DNA of 64,000 bases from an uncultured cyanobacterium (GTDB lineage: Bacteria > Cyanobacteriota > Cyanobacteriia > PCC-6307 > Cyanobiaceae): assembly GCA_903858015.1 (NCBI GenBank), contig CAIOGZ010000063.1, positions 1 to 64,000 of the forward strand, written 5' to 3'. A model generated the notes under the pieces. It did not search any database. It was not told where the DNA came from and saw nothing but the letters and a program-made list of their open reading frames with translations. Positions 9,002 through 25,603 of this stretch are shown here, piece after piece; the first letter of the stretch is position 1; every line of letters begins with the position of its first letter. The position numbers and the translations under genes are program-made.

Positions 9002-9074
9002 GGGGGTCTAGCAATCTGGTGAATGCAGCGGACTCATAATCCGCCTTAGGCGAGTTCGATCCTCGCGACCCCCA
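9002..9074 (+). tRNA. tRNA-Met (CAU), no encoded CCA
   Basis: Folded by eye: acceptor 5' GGGGGTC (9002-9008) pairs with GACCCCC (9067-9073); D-arm 9011-9026; anticodon stem GCGGA/TCCGC (9028-9032 / 9040-9044) with loop CTCATAA, anticodon CAT at 9035-9037; T-arm GCGAG-TTCGATC-CTCGC (9050-9066); discriminator A at 9074. CCA is not encoded. The G1-C72 pair argues against initiator tRNA. Elongator tRNA-Met is most likely, but a lysidine-modified tRNA-Ile(CAU) cannot be excluded. Confidence 0.9.
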
Positions 9075-16330: not shown

Positions 16331-16382
16331 CAATCCTGGGCGATTCCTAGCCATAGATTCTGTTCCGCCGCCGCGCCCCTCC

Positions 16383-17111
16383 ATGGCAGCAACGATCACC
16401 ACCCCGCTCCGCGCCCGCGTGTTGGGGGTGCCGGTGCATGTATGCGGCGATGTTGTCGCCGCCGCCCTGGCCCTGCACGCCAAGGGCGGCGGCCAGATCG
16501 TGACCCTCAACGCCGAGATGACGATGGCGGCAAGGGCCGATCCGGAGCTGGGCGCCGTGATCGAGGCGGCCGAGCTGGTGATCCCCGATGGGGCCGGCGT
16601 GGTCTGGGCGCTGGGGCGCCAGGGCCGGCGGGTGCGCCGCGCGCCGGGCATCGAGCTGGCCCGCCGGCTGCTGGAGCACGCCGCCAGCCACGGCTGGCGG
16701 GTGGCCCTGGTGGGCGGCAGCCCGGCGGTGATGGCCAGCCTGCAACGCCGCCTGGCCGCCGAACTGCCCGGCCTCGATTTAGTGGTGGCCAGCCACGGCT
16801 ACCTGGGCCCGGCCGAATGGCCGCCGCTGCAGCGCCAGCTGCTGGCGGCCCCGCCCGACCTGGTGCTGGTGGCCCTGGGGGTGCCCCGCCAGGAAACCTG
16901 GATCCGCGGCCTACCCGGCCGCCGCAGCGGCCTTTGGATGGGCGTCGGCGGCAGCTTCGATGTGTGGGCCGGCAGCAAAAAGCGCGCCCCCGCCTGGATG
17001 GGCGCCCTGCAGATCGAATGGCTGTATCGCCTCGTACAGGAACCCAGCCGCTGGCGGCGGATGCTGGCCCTGCCGGAGTTTGCGGCGGCGGTGTTGCGGC
17101 AACGGGGCTGA
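16383..17111 (+). CDS. WecG/TagA/CpsF-family glycosyltransferase
   Basis: A 242-residue GT26 enzyme that moves a sugar (ManNAc type in known members) onto a lipid-linked intermediate in cell-surface polysaccharide synthesis. Seen: 'RVLGVPVHVC', 'IVTLNAEMTMAARADPEL' (family: T.N...........), 'IPDGAGVVWALG', 'VALVGGSP', 'LVLVALGVPRQETWI', and the C-terminal 'GVGGSFDVWAGSKKRAP' and 'IEWLYRLVQEPSRWRRM'. All conserved blocks are intact. A decayed copy of its 3' third lies at 18671-18804, beyond the toxin-antitoxin cluster that starts right after this gene. Confidence 0.92.
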   Translation: MAATITTPLRARVLGVPVHVCGDVVAAALALHAKGGGQIVTLNAEMTMAARADPELGAVIEAAELVIPDGAGVVWALGRQGRRVRRAPGIELARRLLEHAASHGWRVALVGGSPAVMASLQRRLAAELPGLDLVVASHGYLGPAEWPPLQRQLLAAPPDLVLVALGVPRQETWIRGLPGRRSGLWMGVGGSFDVWAGSKKRAPAWMGALQIEWLYRLVQEPSRWRRMLALPEFAAAVLRQRG

Positions 17112-17124
17112 GGAGCCGGGATCA

Positions 17125-17453
17125 TCAGGAGCCCGTGAGCCGCTGATCCAGCCGAAAGGGAACCTGATCGAGCAACACCACGGTGGTGATGGTGGGATGG
17201 AGGGGGTTGAGCATCAGGTTGCGGGCCTGAGGCACCACCACCGAGGGCAGCACCAGAGCCAACTGACCGGCTTCGCGGAGCCAGGGGCCACCGAAGGCTG
17301 CGCTGGAGCGGCTGTGGGGAATGGCATCCCAGCCCGGCGGGAGATCGCTGGGATCGGGCCGGGCGGATTCCAACGCTGCCCATCGCGGGAGGCGCCAAGA
17401 CCGGAGAGATCGGCGGCATAGCGCGCCTTGCTCAGCCGCCATGCCTTGATCAC
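17125..17453 (-). pseudogene. RES-domain toxin remnant with internal deletion
   Basis: Two pieces in different frames. N-terminal piece: GTG at 17451-17453, 'IKAWRLSKARYAADLSGLGA' to 'GQRWN' (about 29 residues, to near 17367), the classic RES start (.W.R...RYA....G.GA...GGRWN). C-terminal piece from about 17355: 'DLPPGWDAIPHSRSS', 'VVVPQARNLMLNPLHP' and 'PFRLDQRLTGS'. About 50 codons of the middle are missing and the frame is shifted. RES toxins deplete NAD+. Just upstream, a frame ending 'RRLLQAMEQGAPV' stops at 17450-17452, overlapping the GTG (GTGA); this is probably the tail of the matching Xre/DUF2384 antitoxin, cut off by yoeB. Confidence 0.75.
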
Positions 17454-17513
17454 ACCGGAGCACCCTGCTCCATCGCCTGCAGGAGCCGCCGCACCTGGGC
17501 GGCCCGCGTTGAA

Positions 17514-17810
17514 TCACCGGTCGTGATACCGGCAGGCAAGGATCACCAGCACCCTGCCCTCCAGCCGGTAGACGAGACGATGCTCCTGATCGATCCGGCG
17601 CGACCAGCACCCGGCGAGGTTTTCACGCAAAGGTTCCGGCTTGCCGATGCCCGCAAACGGATCACGCAGAGCAGCCTGGATCAGTTGGTTGATCCGCCGC
17701 AGTTGTTGGCGGTCGTGACCCTGCCATTGAAGGTAGTCGTCCCATGCCGCCGGCGTCCAAGCCAGCCGCTCAGCTTCCGGCACCAGCTTGGTCCGGCTCG
17801 ATGAGGGCAT
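17514..17810 (-). CDS. yoeB: Txe/YoeB-family toxin (ribosome-dependent mRNase)
   Basis: A 98-residue toxin that cleaves mRNA on the ribosome. It aligns by eye with YoeB across its length: 'AWDDYLQWQ', 'INQLIQAALRDPF', 'GIGKPEPLRENLAGCWSRRI', 'EHRLVYRLEG', 'ACRYHDR'. The catalytic Glu (KPEPL), Arg (EHRLVY) and His (RYH) are kept, but the Tyr that follows the His in E. coli YoeB is Asp here. Its start (ATG 17808-17810) lies inside the antitoxin gene, a 41-nt overlap, the usual antitoxin-first order. The gene sits among broken toxin genes. Confidence 0.88.
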   Translation of the reverse strand: MPSSSRTKLVPEAERLAWTPAAWDDYLQWQGHDRQQLRRINQLIQAALRDPFAGIGKPEPLRENLAGCWSRRIDQEHRLVYRLEGRVLVILACRYHDR

Positions 17811-18045
17811 GCTCAAGCCATTCACCGCGCTCGGCCTGCTCCAGCGAGCGCTGCAGATGGGCGGCATTCGCGGGCGAACGGAGCAGATGCACGGTTTCCA
17901 TGAGGCTGTTGTAGGTGGCGAGCGACATCAGCACTGCACCCTGGGCATGGCGACGGGTGATCAGGGTCACATCGGCGTCAGCCTCGACGCGATCGAGGAC
18001 GGCCTTGAAACTCTCGCGGGCTTCCGAAAAACTCACCACCTGCAT
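17770..18045 (-). CDS. yefM: YefM/Phd-family antitoxin
   Basis: A 91-residue antitoxin for the overlapping YoeB. N-terminal DNA-binding part 'MQVVSFSEARESFKAVLD' and 'VTLITRRHAQGAVLMSL', then 'ATYNSLMETVHLLRSPANA', typical of the family. It binds and neutralises the toxin and represses the operon. ATG at 18043-18045 is the family start. The same reading frame stays open upstream without a stop for about 120 more codons through a Uma2-like scrap and the end of a PIN domain, so a longer fusion protein is formally possible but unlikely. Confidence 0.87.
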   Translation of the reverse strand: MQVVSFSEARESFKAVLDRVEADADVTLITRRHAQGAVLMSLATYNSLMETVHLLRSPANAAHLQRSLEQAERGEWLEHALIEPDQAGAGS

Positions 18046-18159
18046 CGGTGTCGTCCAGCTCGACGTACAACAGCCTAGGGCCGCGCCGGGGCCGTTGGAG
18101 GCGCGCCAGATCTCCACGGCCCGCTGCTCGGGGATCAGCAGCCAGCTACAGAGTGCCCA
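18046..18159 (-). pseudogene. Uma2-like nuclease fragment
   Basis: A stretch of about 38 codons between the PIN-domain remnant and yefM, in the yefM frame, reading 'SWLLIPEQRAVEIWRASNGP'. This resembles the C-terminal strands of Uma2 (DUF820) PD-(D/E)XK proteins, in which GWLI.P....VEI.R is common. The rest of such a gene is absent. It is a short match made by memory of the family. Confidence 0.4.
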
Positions 18160-18548
18160 TGCATCCAGCAGGTTTTCGAGGCTCTCTCCACCAGGGAGTC
18201 GGACGATCCCGAAGTCGCGTCGATCGAGGGTGGCGATTCGCCGCAGCCCCTGCTCCTGGGCCACCCAGAGCAGCGAAGCGTCAGCCAGATCGATCGGCAA
18301 ATCGCCGACCTGCCGCATCCAGCCCGCCATCAACGCCAGGGCAGATCCACTCAGCTCCGCAACATTCAGGCCACCGAGCGACACCCAGGCGAGAAAGCTT
18401 GGTGCCACCTCGGCCGGGATCAGATGGCAGACCTCGGTGAGAACCGGCCAAGTGGAGGCGAAAGCACCGTTGTGCTTTTGAAAAAGGCCGCACAGATGCC
18501 ATGGTCGTGGTCACTGCGGTCGAACCAGGCGATCAATGGGCCGGTACC
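18160..18548 (-). pseudogene. PIN-domain toxin (VapC-like), frameshifted
   Basis: Two frames join into one PIN protein. Upstream frame (from 18548): 'GTGPLIAWFDRSDHDHGICA' then 'AFF'. Downstream frame: 'WPVLTEVCHLIPAEVAPSFL', then 'LPIDLADASLLWVAQEQGL' and 'IATLDRRDFGIVRLP'. The join is at the T/A-run 18476-18485, where one base appears missing. The usual first catalytic Asp (DTGPLIA) is Gly here; later acidic residues (ADASL, TLDRRDF) are kept. No start codon is evident. The minus-strand stretch just upstream (18549-18670) reads 'ILGQTLGLSQTEVVKAGLDL', perhaps what is left of a ribbon-helix-helix antitoxin. Confidence 0.72.
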
Positions 18549-18670
18549 GAGGCAGGTGGCACCCCGATAGCGGGCTGCAACAAGTCAAGGCCAGCCTTGA
18601 CCACCTCGGTCTGGCTGAGGCCAAGGGTCTGGCCGAGGATGTCGGCGCGGATCAGGGGAGGTGCGCTGAA

Positions 18671-18804
18671 GACAGCCGCCAGGGAGGCCTGTGGAGGCGC
18701 GTGGGCAGCAGCTTCGACGAGTGAGCCGGCACCAAACAACGCGCCCCGAAATGGATGCGCGCCCTGCAGATCGAATGGCCCTACCGGCTGGTGCAGTTTT
18801 GGGG
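18671..18804 (+). pseudogene. Decayed 3' fragment of a WecG/TagA glycosyltransferase gene
   Basis: Read from 18671 in one frame it gives 'DSRQGGLWRRVGSSFDE', a stop, then 'AGTKQRAPKWMRALQIEWPY' and 'RLVQFWGS'. This follows residue by residue the end of the intact protein encoded at 16383-17111 (GLWMGVGGSFDVWAGSKKRAPAW...). The Trp codon of 'DVWAG' has become TGA. A 21-nt block is identical between the two loci (17002-17022 and 18759-18779). Overall similarity is well below identity, so it is an old copy or a remnant of a paralogue. Confidence 0.75.
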
Positions 18805-18811
18805 GTCCACG

Positions 18812-18949
18812 TCACTGCAGGGCGTACAGCCGCAGGATGTTTCGTGCGCTCGTATCGCCACCGGTCGGGGTGATCGGAATCAGCTGGCCACTGGTGCTGA
18901 GCTCCAGCACGGCATCGGGATTGGCCGCACGAAAAGTCCAACCCTTGCC
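18812..18949 (-). pseudogene. C-terminal scrap of an unrecognised protein
   Basis: About 45 codons ending at a TGA (18812-18814) read 'WTFRAANPDAVLELSTSGQL' then 'TPTGGDTSARNILRLYALQ' with coding-like third positions. The frame has no start and no recognisable domain. It points toward the WecG/TagA fragment and is probably the end of a gene lost in the same rearrangements. Confidence 0.35.
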
Positions 18950-19024
18950 AGCCTGCCTAAAATCGTCTCTGCCCTGGGGCCGAAGTTAAGCGCCAGTTCA
19001 AGATGTTAAGCGCAGCCGCAAGTT

Positions 19025-19215
19025 TGCCAAGATCTGATTGTGGGATTAAAAATCTGGGCAAGCACAACCAGCTGGGGAAAGTCAACCAGCGTGGCTGCGA
19101 CCAGTAGAGAAGGGCTGCACTGGATCAGTGACCCGATCAGGCCGAGTGCTCCTCTGCCGTGGCAAAGCTCAAGCGGAAAGAGCCAAAGCTAATGACATTG
19201 AGCATAGAAGCAATA
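19025..19215 (-). pseudogene. Ghost copy of an HpsJ-like membrane protein gene
   Basis: Minus-strand translation gives 'ASMLNVISFGSFRLSFAT', a stop, then in another frame 'LIGSLIQCSPSLLVAATLV' and 'AQIFNP'. These follow the second and third hydrophobic segments of the intact protein at 20435-21187 ('SALNAIIFGSFPLKLGT', 'LIGALLSSGFSFLVGATLIV', 'AQLLNP'). Stops, a frameshift and a small insertion show decay. The nucleotide match is also visible, e.g. GGGATT(A/T)AAAA.CTGGGCAA on the plus strand at 19042 and 20928. Confidence 0.7.
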
Positions 19216-19242
19216 AAAAAATCCTCCCCTGGCGGGGAGGAT
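19215..19242 (-). terminator. Rho-independent terminator
   Basis: On the minus strand a perfect 9-bp stem, ATCCTCCCC/GGGGAGGAT (arms 19234-19242 and 19221-19229, loop of 4), is followed by six Ts (19215-19220). It lies 40 nt downstream of the stop of the PEP-CTERM-like gene and is the clearest intrinsic terminator in the window. Confidence 0.9.
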
Positions 19243-19281
19243 CAAAGCAAAGCGACAAAAATGCTAAGTAGTGATTACGAT

Positions 19282-19989
19282 TCAAGCAGAAAGCTTGATG
19301 CGGCTACGAAGTTTGCGGGAGAAGCCGAAAGCAGCTCCTGCACCCAAGAGCGGAAGGGGCCCCGGGGTTGGCGTTGTTACAGGTGGCGCCCACAAGGTAG
19401 AAGTTGAGAACTGATTCATTTGACCGGCCGTTACACTCATTGACGCGGTGAAGGTTTCAGACCTAAGGGAAGGAGTGGGGTAAACATAGCTAGGACTAGA
19501 GGATAAATTGACGCCAAAAGCTACAAAACCATTTGAAGTTATGGAAGGCCCAGAAGCGGCATTAAAAGTCATCGTAGCAGTGCTGTTGTTCACGGGAGGA
19601 GCGCTACTTGCAACCGTACCTGTATATTCCTGAATAACGAGATTAGATGGATCGGGACTAAAACGAGAAAATGTATAGCTAAAACTATTATTGCCTGTAA
19701 AGCCTGGAGTTGGCTTGCTGGAGGAGAGCCCAAGGGTAGTTGGAGTTGAACTGACAATCAGCGAGTTGCCTGAGGTGAATCCAGAAGCAAAGGAATTAAG
19801 CGTGAAACAAAAACCATTGCCGGCATCATAAGAGTTGCCAAGTGTAAATCCTCCGAAAGTACTGTTACCTCCACCTGGCATAGTGTTACCTGCTCCTGTG
19901 CAAGCAGCCTGGGCAGGACTGACATTGACAAGGGCAATTGTCCCTGCTGCGAAGAGCACCGAGGCGCCCAACTTTAATGGCTTTTGCAT
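19282..19989 (-). CDS. Exported PEP-CTERM-like surface protein
   Basis: A 235-residue protein with a signal peptide ('LGASVLFAAGTIALVNVSPA' then QAA), a Ser/Thr/Asn/Gly-rich mature region with many short beta-like stretches, and a C-terminal sorting tail: 'TPGPLPLLGAGAAFGFSRKL' then 'RSRIKLSA'. That P-G-P-L-P-L-L-G-A plus hydrophobic helix plus Arg/Lys cluster is the cyanobacterial PEP-CTERM-type signal recognised by exosortase-like enzymes. Such proteins are exported and often tied to extracellular polysaccharide. No exosortase is in the window. AT-richer codon use than the neighbours suggests a different history. A strong terminator follows. Confidence 0.82.
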   Translation of the reverse strand: MQKPLKLGASVLFAAGTIALVNVSPAQAACTGAGNTMPGGGNSTFGGFTLGNSYDAGNGFCFTLNSFASGFTSGNSLIVSSTPTTLGLSSSKPTPGFTGNNSFSYTFSRFSPDPSNLVIQEYTGTVASSAPPVNNSTATMTFNAASGPSITSNGFVAFGVNLSSSPSYVYPTPSLRSETFTASMSVTAGQMNQFSTSTLWAPPVTTPTPGPLPLLGAGAAFGFSRKLRSRIKLSA

Positions 19990-20434
19990 TTCGAGAAAAA
20001 AACACTCACGCGATCATAGCAGAGCGTTGCGTCCCAGGGGAAATCAAAGTGTCTTGATTTCCTGATTTCTTCATTTTTGGCTGCTGCGCATGCCTGGAGC
20101 TTTCGTTGGAGCAACAACAGCGGCCTAGGCCATGGCCGCTGCCGCAGTCCCCGATTTCCAGATCTGGAGCCCAGCTCCGTGGTAAGTAGAGAAGCTTAGC
20201 ATCTTTCGAGTGCGAGCCGAAAGCCCGATTGGGCTGTGCGCTGAGGTGGGGCTGCTGTTGTAAACTAGACGAAACAGCTAGCTCTTTTCGCGGCTTGGGG
20301 TCAGTTCGAAAAATCCAAAATCACAACAAGACGACCAGGATCAAAAGGCAGACATAGCCTTGCTAGATGGGCCCTGAATGAGTCTCGTGCTAGACGAACC
20401 CGAGTCGGTTGTTTCTCGAACTACCCGTAACTGA
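19990..20434. other. Intergenic stretch without a recognisable gene
   Basis: AT-richer than average. It contains a 7-bp hairpin (AGCGGCC, 20119-20125, with GGCCGCT, 20134-20140) upstream of the PEP-CTERM-like gene, possibly in its leader or promoter region, and downstream sequence of the HpsJ-like gene. I see no coding frame, repeat or RNA gene. Confidence 0.5.
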
Positions 20435-21187
20435 CTATAGCAATTCATAAAATAACCGCGTGACTAGATTCTCGGACTTGCTAGAAAGATTGGCCAATGT
20501 CGAAAAGGCTGCCGCCATCAAGATTGCCTGCGAAGAATTCCTAATCGCTTCTTTCATAAAGAGCTGGAACGCTTCGGACTTTCGAGATTCAGCATTGGTT
20601 TTTACGGCATTAATCTGAAATTTAATATTCTCAACTGCGCGCTGCTTGATCACTGGGAAATCGGCATCAAAGCGGGCAGGCAGCGGTGGCGGATTGGGCA
20701 GGGAAGCAACATAAGCGCGCATTTCAAGCTCGGAGTTGCTAGCAGCTATTTTATTGCTGAAAGTATTTAATGCCTCGATGGCTTTGGCAGCGGAGATCTC
20801 TATGTTCTTCAATGCTCGTGAGCCCAGAAAATACTGAACTGGGATAATCAGTATCAGCAAAATGGCAAACCAAGCGGACAGCCGGCTCATGCTGAGTTGC
20901 CAGCTTTGCAAGGTACTGTCTTTGGGATTTAAAAGCTGGGCAACCACAATCAGCGTGGCACCAACCAAAAAGCTAAAGCCAGATGAAAGCAGTGCCCCGA
21001 TCAAGTTGAGCTGCCACTCGACTGTGCCTAGCTTTAGCGGAAAAGAACCGAAGATAATGGCATTGAGCGCGGAACCAATTATTAACCAGCCAACAAGCCC
21101 TAAGGTTAGGGAGGATTTTGCTCGAATGCGTCTGCGTCGGACGGAGCTTGATTCGGCCACCAAGTCTGTTCCTTCTATTAATTCCAT
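20435..21187 (-). CDS. HpsJ-like membrane protein
   Basis: A 250-residue protein. A basic, hydrophilic N-terminus (about 1-27) is followed by hydrophobic segments at about 28-48 ('LTLGLVGWLIIGSALNAIIF'), 62-86 ('LIGALLSSGFSFLVGATLIV') and 107-122 ('WFAILLILIIPVQYFLG'), then a charged helical cytoplasmic or periplasmic region to about 215 and a weak hydrophobic C-terminus. The pattern 'GSFPLKLGTVEWQL' followed by a membrane helix matches cyanobacterial HpsJ-like proteins, named after a hormogonium-polysaccharide locus; no biochemical role is known. AT-rich codon use. A ghost copy lies at 19025-19215. Confidence 0.65.
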   Translation of the reverse strand: MELIEGTDLVAESSSVRRRRIRAKSSLTLGLVGWLIIGSALNAIIFGSFPLKLGTVEWQLNLIGALLSSGFSFLVGATLIVVAQLLNPKDSTLQSWQLSMSRLSAWFAILLILIIPVQYFLGSRALKNIEISAAKAIEALNTFSNKIAASNSELEMRAYVASLPNPPPLPARFDADFPVIKQRAVENIKFQINAVKTNAESRKSEAFQLFMKEAIRNSSQAILMAAAFSTLANLSSKSENLVTRLFYELL

Positions 21188-21374
21188 TTTTCGGGGTGCA
21201 TTTGGAGTGAGTAAAAGCTAAAATAAACTCAAGCAAAAGTTTAACATGTATCAGGCCTCGAGGCCAAGCTCGGGAGAATGCCGTCGGAACGGAGATGAAA
21301 CTGTCATAAAACCTGTTTCCAGTGTAAGCGGCATGCCAGACTAGTAGATTGGCTCCTCCTATGTACAGGGGGAT

Positions 21375-21680
21375 TGCCTTGGGGCTGGCCCCAAACGGCC
21401 AGCGGCAAGAATAGGGGAATAATTGGCAGAATCTCCCCCAGGGGCCGAAGTCCTGCTAATCATCTGGCAGCTGGGCCAAGCAGGTTGGCGAAGGAAGCGA
21501 AATGGCCACTAAGAGTAGCTCTATGGGTATCTGGGAGCCCTTGGAGCGGACCGTTGCGGTGGAGCCGCAACGGTTTGACCATAAAGCCCTAGGCCAGGAA
21601 GTCAAATCCTCTACAAAATATGCGGCGGTGCTGGCCATGAGCGTGGCTGAGTGCAGCAGGGTGGGCTTCACGGGGCTCGA
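21375..21680 (-). pseudogene. Decayed copy of the tgt 3' end plus psbK
   Basis: Minus-strand translation gives 'STAAYFVEDLTSWPRALW' and, in the same frame, 'IPIELLLVAISLPSPTCLAQ' then 'LPDD' and a stop. It parallels the intact psbK unit at 22141-22440, where the same positions read '[18 protein letters not shown]' and '[20 protein letters not shown]' then 'LPEAY'. Nucleotide similarity continues over the lost psbK membrane part (plus strand: AACGGCCAGCGGCAAGA near 21395 versus AAAGGCCAGCAGCAAGA near 22174; CTGGCAGCTGGGCCAA near 21464 versus CGGGCAGCTGGGCCAG). The start codon is ATA or lost, a premature stop is present, and small indels occur. Confidence 0.78.
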
Positions 21681-22140
21681 ATCCCGCGGCCATGGCGCGC
21701 CTAGACCTGCAGCTATTGCAGCAGGCCCTGTTCCACAAAACGTTGGAGCTGGTGATCTACATTTTGGTGCACATCTGAGAAGAAATGATCCCTACAAAGA
21801 GGGATGTCGCCCCCATGATCTAAAGCCGGCAGACCAGGCGATTGACAAGATTAGGGAAACAGGGCAAATATAGTTGTAAAAATATCGCCCCTGGCGAAGG
21901 ACCCTCCAGACGCAGCTCTCTGTTCATATCTAAACTGTTTGCAAGAATGGCTGATTACGAATTGGCCGAACCTAGAACTTGTGAGCTCTGCCTTGACCCC
22001 TACCATCCCATGCTTCCGTTCACAAACTAGGGGCGAATCTGTTCCAAGGGAGACCAGAAAGGGAGGTAGCCTCCAGCTGGGCAACAGAAAGAAAGCTCAA
22101 CTCTTCCGTGGATGTCCCTTGGCATGCTGAGGCTAAAAGG
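21681..22140. other. Gene-poor stretch between psbK and its decayed copy
   Basis: About 460 bp of AT-richer sequence with no convincing gene. A plus-strand frame at about 21694-21777 reads 'LDLQLLQQALFHKTLELVIY', coding-like but with no family or start, and may be a scrap. Nothing else was recognised. Confidence 0.4.
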
Positions 22141-22305
22141 TTAGCGGAACCCAACTGAGGCCTGCCACACAAAGGCCAGCAGCAAGAAGAAGAAAGGAAT
22201 GATCGGCAGGATATCCACCAACGGGCCGAAGGCCTGGTAGGCCTCGGGCAGCTGGGCCAGCAGGGTGCCGTGGGAAGCGAGACCGGCCAGCAGGAGGTGC
22301 GCCAT
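22141..22305 (-). CDS. psbK: Photosystem II reaction-centre protein PsbK
   Basis: A 54-residue single-helix subunit of photosystem II. A short cleavable N-terminus ('[18 protein letters not shown]') is followed by the highly conserved mature protein: '[20 protein letters not shown]', then '[16 protein letters not shown]', which ends exactly like PsbK elsewhere. ATG at 22303-22305. In cyanobacteria I recall psbK directly after tgt; here a broken Rpn-type gene and a duplicated scrap of tgt lie between them. This is the only intact psbK in the window. Confidence 0.95.
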
Positions 22306-22339
22306 GGGGAGTTGGGGCCCTTGCAGCGGCCCGGTGCGG

Positions 22340-22440
22340 TGGTTGGAAGCTACCACGTGGGGGCCGCCGCGTAAGGCCGATCGCCAGGCAGCGAAATCCT
22401 CTGCAAAACAAGCGGCGCCGCTGGCCGGGGCCATGCCGCA
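22340..22440 (-). pseudogene. Duplicated scrap of the tgt 3' end
   Basis: Directly upstream of psbK, the minus strand reads '[13 protein letters not shown]' and then a segment that in tgt's alternate frame reads '[10 protein letters not shown]' and here '[10 protein letters not shown]'. The core plus-strand match is ATCCTCTGCAAAACAAGC (22388-22405) to ATCCTCTGAAAAGCAAC at the real tgt end (23609). It shows that the tgt end was copied and then drifted. The same scrap occurs a third time at about 21590-21640. Confidence 0.6.
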
Positions 22441-22633
22441 GGGCGAAGCCCAGGTGCCGGTAGCGGGCCTCCAGGCTCGCGGGCACGATCGGAGCGGAGA
22501 TCCCAGCCATGGCGGAGGTTTGGGAATCGGTGCGGCCGAAATGGTGCGGCTGCTGAGTGGGGCCGCTGAGCGCTGCTGGTCAAACGTGAGGCTGAGGTTG
22601 GCAAGAGCCAGGTGGATGGCGCCGCTTGTGGGC

Positions 22634-23496
22634 TCAGCTGGCGTGGCGGTTCAACCAGGCCTTGAGGTCCTCGGGTCCCTGGAAGTCGAGCAGGGCATCG
22701 GCCAGGTTTTCGAGATCGCTGAGGGGCAGGCCCTGGATGAGGGCCTGTTGGTTGGGGTTGAGCGAGCCGCAACGGCACTGGAGCAACCGGAGGGTAAGAG
22801 CGGCAGCTTCGGCTTGGCGGCCCTTTTGCTCGCCCTGGCCAAAGATCTCGCGGTAGGCGACGCTGCTCGTGAAGTCGTCGACGGTGATCCCACCCATGGC
22901 GCAGATCTCGGGAACGGTGCGGCCGTTGAAGCGTGACACCAAGATAGCGGCGATCACATCGTCGATCTCGGCATCGAGGCTGGTGCCGGCGACTTCGGCT
23001 CGAATCGCCTTCGAGCAATCGGGCAGCTGCTCTTCCGGCAGCAGCAGCATCCCAAGGGCCCTTTGCAGGGGTGGCGCCGTTGGGGGCAAGCGCTCGGGGA
23101 GCAATTCGATCCACACCACCCGCCGCTCCACAAACTCCTGAACCGGTGTGGGGTCACCGAAATGGAGCTCCCGAGATGGGCAGATAACCACCACCTGCCA
23201 GTGGCGGATCGGCCGGCCCTGGCGTTGCTGCTGTTGCAGCAACGCCCCGTTTCGGCATTGAGCCGCAGCAGGAAGTCTGGATCGGCCGCCATCTGGGCCT
23301 CCAGGATCACTACCGGCAACTCGGGCTGATCGGTCGGCGGCAGGAACAGCCCATCGAGCCGGTATTCCCCTTCCTTCAGCACCGGCGCGCTGAACCCATA
23401 GCCCTCCATCCTCGGCAGGAGGGCAGCCACCAAGGGCTGCAGGCGCTCGGCATGTTGCTGGAACAGCCAGTAGAAGAGCTTGTCGCTGGCGACCAC
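22634..23496 (-). pseudogene. Rpn-family nuclease (DUF2887/DUF4351), frameshifted
   Basis: N-terminal part from GTG 23494-23496: 'SDKLFYWLFQQHAERL', 'LDGLFLPPTDQPELPVVILE', 'DPDFLLRLNAETG'. It then continues in another frame: 'LLQQQQRQGRPIRHWQVVVI', 'FVERRVVWIELLPE', ending with 'LRLLQCRCGSLNPNQQALI' and 'DLENLADALLDFQGPEDLKAW', a DUF4351-like tail. The frames join at 23241-23250 in a run of four Cs, where one base seems lost. Rpn proteins are PD-(D/E)XK nucleases related to transposases and promote recombination. The catalytic Asp/Glu of the first part (LDGLF, ILEAQ) are visible. It sits between tgt and psbK. Confidence 0.8.
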
Positions 23497-23538
23497 GGAG
23501 AAGGTTCCGGCTACCTCACGGCGCAGGCGATGCCACGC

Positions 23539-24699
23539 TCAAGCCGTTGGCGCCGATGCAGGCCACCAGGTGTGCGCCGCCGCAGAGCCCTGCTCCCAGG
23601 GGGCGAAATCCTCTGAAAAGCAACCGTCCTGGATCGCCTGGCCCATCGCCGAGCTGAAGCGCTGCAAGGTGGTGAGGTTGTGGAGGCTGAGCAGGCTGCG
23701 GCCGAGCATTTCGCCGCAGCGGATCAGGTGGTGCAGGTAGGCGCGGCTGTGCAGCCGGCAGGCCAGGCAGGGGCAGCTCGCATCGAGGGGGCTGTGGTCG
23801 TGGCGGAAGCGGGCGTTGCGCAGGTTCCAGCGCTCGCCCCCCACCAGGGCCGTGCCGTGGCGGCCGAGCCGGGTGGGCAGCACGCAATCAAATAGATCAA
23901 AGCCCTGGGCCACCGCGATCGCCATCTCCCGCAGACTGCCCACCCCCATCAAGTAGTGGGGTTTCGCCTCGGGCAGCAGCGGCCCCAGCTGCCGCACGAT
24001 CCGGTGCATCTCCTCCACCGGCTCGCCCACGCTCACGCCGCCCACGGCGATGCCCGGCAGATCAAAGCCGGCCACCACCCGGGCTGATTCCGCCCGCAGC
24101 GCCGGGAAGCAGCCCCCCTGAACGATCCCGAACAGGGCCTGGTCGCCGCGGTCGTGCACCGCCAAACAGCGCTCCAGCCAGGCGTGGGTGCGGCGGCAGG
24201 CGGCGGCCACCTCGGCCTCGCTGGCCGGGTAGGGGGGGCACTGGTCGAAGGCCATCACCACATCCGCCCCCAGGGCCGCCTGGATCGCCAGCGAGCGCTC
24301 CGGCGTGAGCTCAATGCGGGCGCCATCGCGGGGCGAGCGGAAGACCACGCCCTGGTCGTCGATGCGGTTGATGGCGCCGAGGCTGAACACCTGGTAACCG
24401 CCCGAATCGGTGAGCAGCGGCCCCGGCCATCCCATGAAGCGGTGCAGCCCACCGGCCGCCGCCACCACGGCCTCACCGGGCTGCAGGTGCAGGTGGTAGG
24501 TGTTGGCCAGCACCATCTCGGCGCCGGTTTCGGCCAGCTGGGGGATGGCGACGCCCTTCACCGTGGCGGCCGTACCCACCGGCATGAAGCGGGGGGTGCT
24601 GACCACGCCGTGGGGGGTGTGGAAACAACCGCAGCGGGCCCGGCTGTGGGGGCAGCGGGCCGTAACCGTGAAACTGAAGTCGGCGGGGTTCGTCGACAC
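23539..24699 (-). CDS. tgt: Queuine/preQ1 tRNA-guanosine transglycosylase
   Basis: About 386 residues. It replaces guanine-34 in GUN-anticodon tRNAs with preQ1. Motifs: '[15 protein letters not shown]', '[10 protein letters not shown]', the catalytic '[13 protein letters not shown]', '[12 protein letters not shown]', 'GIVQGGCF', 'GGVSVGEP', '[11 protein letters not shown]', and zinc ligands '[17 protein letters not shown]' near the C-terminus. GTG at 24697-24699 was taken as start; it gives family length and leaves 85 bp to the divergent cobS. The last residues ('[16 protein letters not shown]') are duplicated twice downstream as scraps next to psbK. Confidence 0.93.
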
Positions 24700-24784
24700 G
24701 CGGGCGGCTTCCGGATGCAAGGGTGAAGGGCGGGCTTCAGGCCTGCCACCGGCCCCCGTCCAGCCCGACGCTACGCGCCACCCG

Positions 24785-25603
24785 ATGAGCCGCCCCTCCA
24801 CCCCGCCCCAACCCCGGGCCCCCGCCTGGCTGCGCGACCTGGCCGGGGCCTGGATCTTCTATTCGGTGCTACCCGCCTGGCCCTGGCCGCCGCCGCGCTT
24901 CGAGCGGATCGCCCGCTTCGCCCCCTGGGTGGGGGTGGTGCTGGGGGGCCTGCAGGGCCTGCTGTGGTGGGCCCTGCAGGGGCGGGTGCCGCTGCTCGCC
25001 CAGGTTGCGTTAGTGCTGGCGGCCGGCCTGCTGCTCTCGGGCGGCCTGCACATGGATGGCGCCATGGATACCGCCGATGGGCTGGCCGCCGGCGAACGGC
25101 TGCTGGAGGCGATGGACGACAGCCGGGTCGGGGCCAGCGGCGCCCAAGCCCTGGCGCTGCTGTTACTGCTGCGCAGCGCCGCCCTGGCCAGCCTGGCGGC
25201 CGTCGCCCCGATCGCCGCCCCGATCGCCCTGGTCTGGGCTGCCCTGTGGGGCAGGGTGGCGCCGCTAGTGGCGATCGCCCGCTTCGCCTACCTCAGGCCG
25301 GGCGGCACGGCCAGCTTTCACCGCGAGCACTGGCGGGGGCTGGCCGCCGAGCTGCGGCCCACGGCGCTGCTGCTGGCCCTGCTGCTCTTGCCGAGCTGCT
25401 GGCTGGCCCAACCAGCCCAGCCGGTCCAGCTGGCAGCGGTGGCCGGCCTGCTGCCCGCCCTGCTGGTGCCCCACTGGCTGGGGCGGCGGCTCGGCGGCCA
25501 CAGCGGCGACAGCTACGGGGCCTGTGTGGAATGGGTCGAGACCCTCAGCCTGCTGCTGGCGGCGCTGCTGCTGCTGGTGCTCAGGGCCCCGCCGGCAGGC
25601 TGA
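24785..25603 (+). CDS. cobS: Adenosylcobinamide-GDP ribazoletransferase (cobalamin synthase)
   Basis: A 272-residue integral membrane enzyme that joins adenosylcobinamide-GDP and alpha-ribazole in the last steps of (pseudo)cobalamin synthesis. Diagnostic '[18 protein letters not shown]' at about 85-102, with the acidic metal-binding cluster, then '[17 protein letters not shown]' and '[15 protein letters not shown]' near the C-terminus. Several hydrophobic helices. ATG at 24785. It overlaps the convergent histidine kinase gene by 23 nt at the 3' end. Confidence 0.93.

Follow-up and report, generated by a model that had tools for sequence, protein, structure and literature searches.

In the cyanobacterial DNA analyzed here (64,000 nucleotides, the whole of which is called the window), a Rpn-like gene lies between tgt and psbK, and copies of the tgt-psbK junction flank it on both sides. 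According to the explanation that we consider probable as a whole, the last codon and stop codon of tgt (TGG TAG), which overlap the likely extended −10 element of psbK in insert-free picocyanobacteria, would have done so in the ancestor too, and DNA carrying a Rpn-like (DUF2887-DUF4351) gene would have come to rest right after the TGG, flanked on each side by ~58 bp of the junction. The upstream copy would have stayed the tgt C terminus, now ending at a TGA within the rpn leader, and the downstream copy would have stayed the psbK promoter while its coding sequence drifted. The repeat may have arisen in the joining event itself, most likely by repair or a template switch that recopied the 58 bp, and homologous recombination involving tgt, psbK, and the flanking genes would have carried the arrangement from species to species. 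Extra psbK copies would have arisen at times, one locally in the window lineage and others beside Rpn-like genes elsewhere, and would be decaying without the motif. The locus thus offers a concrete case of a nuclease-family gene that settled between core genes, one of them of photosystem II, and crossed species by recombination. It is also a natural experiment in which a stop codon was split from the promoter overlapping it, which would reveal the bases needed by each gene. No paper on a tgt-psbK split was found among the matches listed, as judged by titles and the starts of abstracts. The features of the locus are collected in Table 1.

Table 1. Features of the tgt-psbK-wecG region of the window
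Feature	Position	Strand	Basis or remark
tgt ORF (queuine tRNA-ribosyltransferase)	23539..24801	−	Pfam TGT 1.7e-139; stop analysis
Junction repeat, upstream copy (~58 bp)	23566..23623	−	Encodes tgt C terminus, without the psbK −10 motif; edges by eye
Rpn-like DUF2887+DUF4351 gene, frameshift near 23242	22634..23496	−	PF11103 in two frames, PF14261
Scrap of Rpn-like gene, 3' of the Rpn-like gene	22495..22538	−	Matches 22882-22925, 82% over 44 nt
Junction repeat, downstream copy	22353..22411	−	tgt coding decayed; runs into psbK promoter-like motif; edges by eye
TGGTAGCTT, likely extended −10 of psbK	22347..22355	−	Same motif overlaps tgt stop in most insert-free genomes
Live psbK, 54 aa, stop included	22141..22305	−	Pfam 1.1e-23; NCBIfam 4.4e-26
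Dead copy, junction tail + psbK	21380..21660	−	Self-BLASTN, diagnostic sites
HpsJ-like, cyanoexosortase A-associated protein	20435..21187	−	Below curated cutoff; inside variable psbK-wecG interval
wecG-type glycosyltransferase	16350..17105	+	Conserved far edge of variable interval

Among the best 80 psbK loci of at least 149 relatives in a named-genome scan, tgt lies upstream of psbK in 79 (L123 ends too early), and the gap between the two genes is at most 181 bp in 75. The gap is 1141 to 2012 bp and holds a Rpn-like gene in four of the 80 (L061, L062, L063, and L064, from genomes G010, G021, G028, and G032, respectively). Together with the window and G025 (L041), these make six genomes with a Rpn-like gene between tgt and psbK. 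Loci with both genes (79 of the best 80, the window, and G025a) number 81, of which 75 are without rpn. The tgt stop is the TAR of TGGTARNNT in 73 of these 75 insert-free loci among the best 80, the exceptions being L088 and L136. In all six rpn loci, the tgt stop is a TGA, and the motif is found 51 to 53 nt before psbK; in the window, the tgt C terminus continues past the position of the usual TGG-TAG.

Conservation of the motif follows psbK. The 125-nt windows upstream of live psbK genes contain TGNTANNNT in 79 of 82 cases, compared with 1.1 expected by shuffling (it is absent from those of o082, x077, and x088), and the psbK windows of more distant cyanobacteria contain it in 21 of 22, compared with 2.8 expected. 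The latter set comprises 21 of 23 class-level genomes (all except G052 and G059) plus L136. The motif lies at −60 to −69 from a point ~12 nt inside psbK in 17 of 21, or roughly 50 nt before the ATG. Of the 23 class-level genomes, 19 were examined for tgt, which was adjacent to psbK in 7, with a stop that overlaps the motif in 2 (G046 and G055), and did not adjoin psbK in 12, none of which ends in TGG-TAR. Because the motif is kept at distant psbK genes and is found at none of the unlinked tgt genes, its bases track psbK rather than tgt. TGGTARNNT is likely the extended −10 promoter of psbK, as indicated by its resemblance to the consensus, and in this reading the psbK transcript would start a few bases 3' of TGGTAGNTT. 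At one locus, L082, psbK lies ~177 bp from tgt, and the 125 nt before psbK contain no motif although the tgt stop carries one. L077, a cyanobacterial tgt-psbK locus, is filed under the title of a Bifidobacterium breve MAG and looks mislabeled.

The ~58-bp junction repeat is present on both sides of the Rpn-like gene in all six rpn loci. Judged by eye, it extends from about TTGTTTTGCAGAGG to the TGG codon, or 58 to 59 bp in the window; since the two window copies are only about 71% alike, the original length and edges are estimates. The sequences show that the two copies divide the roles of the overlap between them. When compared with G024a, the upstream copies keep 15 or 16 of 20 tgt residues and none has the motif, whereas the downstream copies keep 8 to 14 of the residues and all six have the motif; insert-free rows keep 17 to 20. 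In duplication-degeneration-complementation (subfunctionalization), two copies each keep one of two ancestral functions. The junction copies likewise each seem to keep one ancestral function, but whole genes are not what was divided here; the unit is a ~58-bp stretch in which a stop codon and a likely promoter overlap. The first-pass annotation had attributed the separation of psbK from tgt to copying of the junction, which is not supported. The Rpn-like gene stands between the two genes with the junction on both sides in six genomes, and the tgt scrap beside psbK holds the likely psbK promoter, retained in every one of them.

Two other routes to the same structure have to be weighed. The repeat could predate the insert, had a tandem duplication (tgt-tail-psbK-tail-psbK) come first and had the Rpn-like gene then overwritten the first psbK. 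The window does hold a tandem tail-psbK copy, itself a local duplicate, but psbK queries detected nothing in the stretch from tgt to rpn of the rpn loci (they would overlook a remnant that is short or decayed), and the rpn leader begins within about ten codons of the tgt TGG, so we regard this order of events as unlikely. The unit rpn-spacer-tail-psbK could also have been built at another site, such as the second rpn locus found in G010 and G024, and have recombined in via psbK with its own promoter tail. Consistent with this, C81 of G024 has rpn-spacer-tail-psbK away from tgt, C123 of G010 has the corresponding rpn locus, where psbK was not found, the rpn leader is common to the loci, and the foreign tract of G021 ends inside psbK. 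However, the dead G024 copy falls within the cassette group and may equally derive from a tgt-psbK locus, and assembly at another site seems to us doubtful. The preferred reading, insertion with copying of the overlap, could be extended into a rule by which Rpn-like genes enter overlapping junctions through such an event, so that both neighbors stay functional and the host is spared. We offer that extension as a tentative idea that is probably wrong; if true, overlap copying would open places between core genes, tgt and psbK among them, to Rpn-like genes.

The repeats within the window were examined by self-BLASTN of 20500-25500, and local alignment scores were judged against 300 shuffles. The self-comparison proposed in the first-pass annotation places the region 21375-21680 in a match with the psbK region (21380-21636 and 22156-22426; 71% over 273 columns, E 1.8e-28), and a wider local alignment of the dead and live tail-psbK copies scores 226, compared with a shuffle maximum of 47. 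The tgt end (23562-23651) matches 22349-22438 with 71% identity over 91 columns (E 1.2e-5; score, 80; shuffle maximum, 39). The three-part repeat reported earlier is therefore borne out as an observation. Aligned directly, the tgt end and the dead copy match weakly (score, 32, compared with a shuffle maximum of 31), and the link of the third scrap to tgt therefore runs mainly via the second. A further repeat, absent from the earlier account, pairs the scrap of the Rpn-like gene with the gene itself (Table 1), and all three repeats found by self-comparison of 20500-25500 are on one strand. Drafts make up most of the genomes compared, and an assembly error or chance might be suspected, but with the tgt-rpn-psbK structure present in six genomes and an E value of 2e-28 inside the window, the probability of either is negligible.

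The live psbK is intact and matches the PsbK models of Pfam and NCBIfam above their cutoffs. It is the only place in this genome reported by a protein search at E 10, which missed the fossil because the latter is too decayed. The dead copy has a stop just after LAQLPDD, frame breaks, and no promoter-like motif. The earlier description of one live and one dead psbK thus stands. At diagnostic sites, the fossil sides with the live copy by 23:6 over G010, 20:5 over G025a, 24:4 over G024a, 24:6 over G063, and 18:6 over G021. Raw BLAST identity is 74% to relatives over shorter stretches and 71% over 273 columns to its own live copy, so that raw identity does not settle the origin of the fossil, but the diagnostic sites do. 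Judged by those sites, the window fossil was copied locally from the live psbK, as had been claimed. The tgt-rpn-psbK arrangement is common to the six genomes, and the fossil is confined to the window lineage.

Alternatively, an imported rpn-psbK unit might have displaced the native psbK, of which the dead copy would be the remnant. Its location between the live psbK and wecG is the expected place of a displaced native gene, and the stretch upstream of it is not clearly foreign to tgt coding sequence (the score with tgt of G025a was reached by 12 of 500 shuffles). However, the diagnostic sites given above for G024a, G010, and G025a favor the live copy, and the upstream stretch is most like the post-rpn spacer of G025a (0 of 500 shuffles). 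It is less similar to the spacers of G000, G010, and G032 (6 of 500 each), not clearly similar to those of G021, G028, and G024b (24, 70, and 230 of 500, respectively), and poorly similar to the window's own tgt coding sequence (86 of 500). The upstream-stretch comparison is weak either way, and displacement of a native gene, which we set aside on the diagnostic sites, appears very unlikely.

Extra copies of psbK are rare. The gene was found in 58 of the 60 genomes searched (the window's own included), and a second strong match was found only in G024 and G025. The second psbK of G024 contains a stop; that of G025 is open and has S and P where the window psbK has L. Both sit beside Rpn-like genes at other loci, and, counting the window fossil, all three extra copies are without the motif. 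In L040 (1895-8735), several copies of the Rpn-like gene surround the second, motif-less psbK of G025. A viral source of psbK was rejected, as none of 170 pattern-matching stretches in viral contigs proved to be a relative by tblastn.

Trees of the flanking genes place G025 with o072 (L072, CCALA 015) and o074 (L074, A. saxicola) (100/100) and G021, G028, and G032 with o082 (L082) (100/100). The wecG-side tree groups G000, G063, G010, and G024 (100/100), while the tgt-side flank tree (tgt, cobS, and kinase) does not resolve G000, G063, G010, and G024, and the tree of tgt by itself is mostly unresolved. In contrast to the flank trees, the tree of the tail plus psbK unites the rpn-genome units (89/96), and the extra copies fall within this group. 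The psbK coding sequence by itself yields a tree in which no branch is starred and G021, G028, and G032 are not united with the remaining rpn genomes. Identities of segments along the locus explain the conflict between the flank and tail-psbK trees. G025 and o074 are 94% identical in the histidine kinase gene and cobS but 83% in tgt and 74% in wecG, and then 93% again, whereas G025 and G010 are 91% identical in tgt and 95% in wecG. In G025, a tract that resembles G010 thus runs from tgt to wecG and is bordered by flanks that resemble o074. Codons 1 to 16 of G021 psbK are 94% identical to those of G010 and G025 (51 nt) and 71% to those of the flank sister o082 (45 nt), whereas codons 19 to 54 are 96% identical to o082 (114 nt) and 88 to 89% to G010 and G025. 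These pieces are short (45 to 114 nt), and they show that G021 has a foreign psbK leader and codons 1 to 16 in an otherwise native locus. Together, the trees of the flanks and the identities of the segments show that recombination tracts carried the arrangement between species. In G024, which is sister to G010 in the flanks, rpn is absent from tgt-psbK, but rpn-tail-dead psbK is present at another locus, where G010 has rpn and no psbK was found; gain, loss, and exchange may thus have come in more than one order.

The Rpn-like gene of the window is frameshifted, and intact relatives are present in L041, L061, and L063. Pfam lists only DUF2887 and DUF4351 on the intact protein and does not list PF04754, and the match to the Rpn family model TIGR01784 is 16.6 bits (cutoff, 52.1). 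The predicted fold has a mean pLDDT of 60, with residues 1 to 77 under 50, and is too weak for use in judging a PD-(D/E)XK fold. With the family match under its cutoff and a weak fold model, the label "Rpn" denotes a resemblance. The only two sequence matches to solved structures, both weak (E 0.009 and 0.17), are not nucleases by name, and a PADLOC search left the Rpn-like protein, the HpsJ-like protein, and the antitoxin ORF without a match. The flanking repeat, at ~58 bp, is not the short target duplication of an IS-type transposon, and no inverted repeat with one arm at each gene end was found among the 25 longest of 71 pairs. Insertion linked to a tRNA was rejected; the two tRNA calls of the window are at 9002 and 59530. 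G010 carries separate DUF4351 genes, namely, two additional copies in tandem, both open, of the third of the Rpn-like gene that encodes DUF4351 (L061:4351-4970); they resemble RpnS genes.

Two accounts of rpn genes bear comparison with this locus, one of them the preprint of Zhong et al. (PMC10327210). According to that preprint, rpn genes move horizontally, occur in tandem arrays and alongside separate DUF4351 genes, and show no target-site duplications. The locus here resembles those systems in the tandem partial DUF4351-end copies of G010 and in being multicopy, patchy, and horizontally moving, but differs in the ~58-bp junction repeat that flanks the gene. Kingston et al. (PMC5350276) describe E. 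coli rpnC, which appears to have entered one locus twice and for which template switching was proposed. There, as here, a nuclease-family gene lies between two core genes (panC and panD for rpnC) in some relatives, and phylogenies of flank and insert conflict. In contrast to rpnC, the gene here has DUF2887 and DUF4351 with no PF04754 listed by Pfam, and a junction repeat flanks it, splitting an overlapping stop codon and promoter-like motif. The Rpn-like nuclease might itself have driven the insertion and later copying in a homing-like manner. RpnA-type enzymes raise RecA-independent recombination, and the ends they leave can prime template switching, as PMC5350276 states, and the apparent double entry of rpnC agrees with such activity. 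However, tracts of homologous recombination already account for the spread, the window gene is frameshifted, its family match is under the cutoff, and a role of Rpn proteins as transposases is judged highly unlikely in PMC10327210, from another group. Accordingly, we think it rather improbable that the nuclease was the driver.

Beyond psbK, the gene order kinase-cobS-tgt-psbK-wecG is kept across the loci compared, and the psbK-wecG interval (17106-22140 in the window) is as short as 28 bp and as long as 5 kb in the 11 genomes compared for it. A HpsJ-like gene lies in this interval in G000, G010, and G025. Within the interval, 17770-18408 of the window matches a Phd/YefM antitoxin and has a weak PIN-like stretch before the match; similar DNA (92% over 79 nt) is found after the second psbK of G025 in L040.
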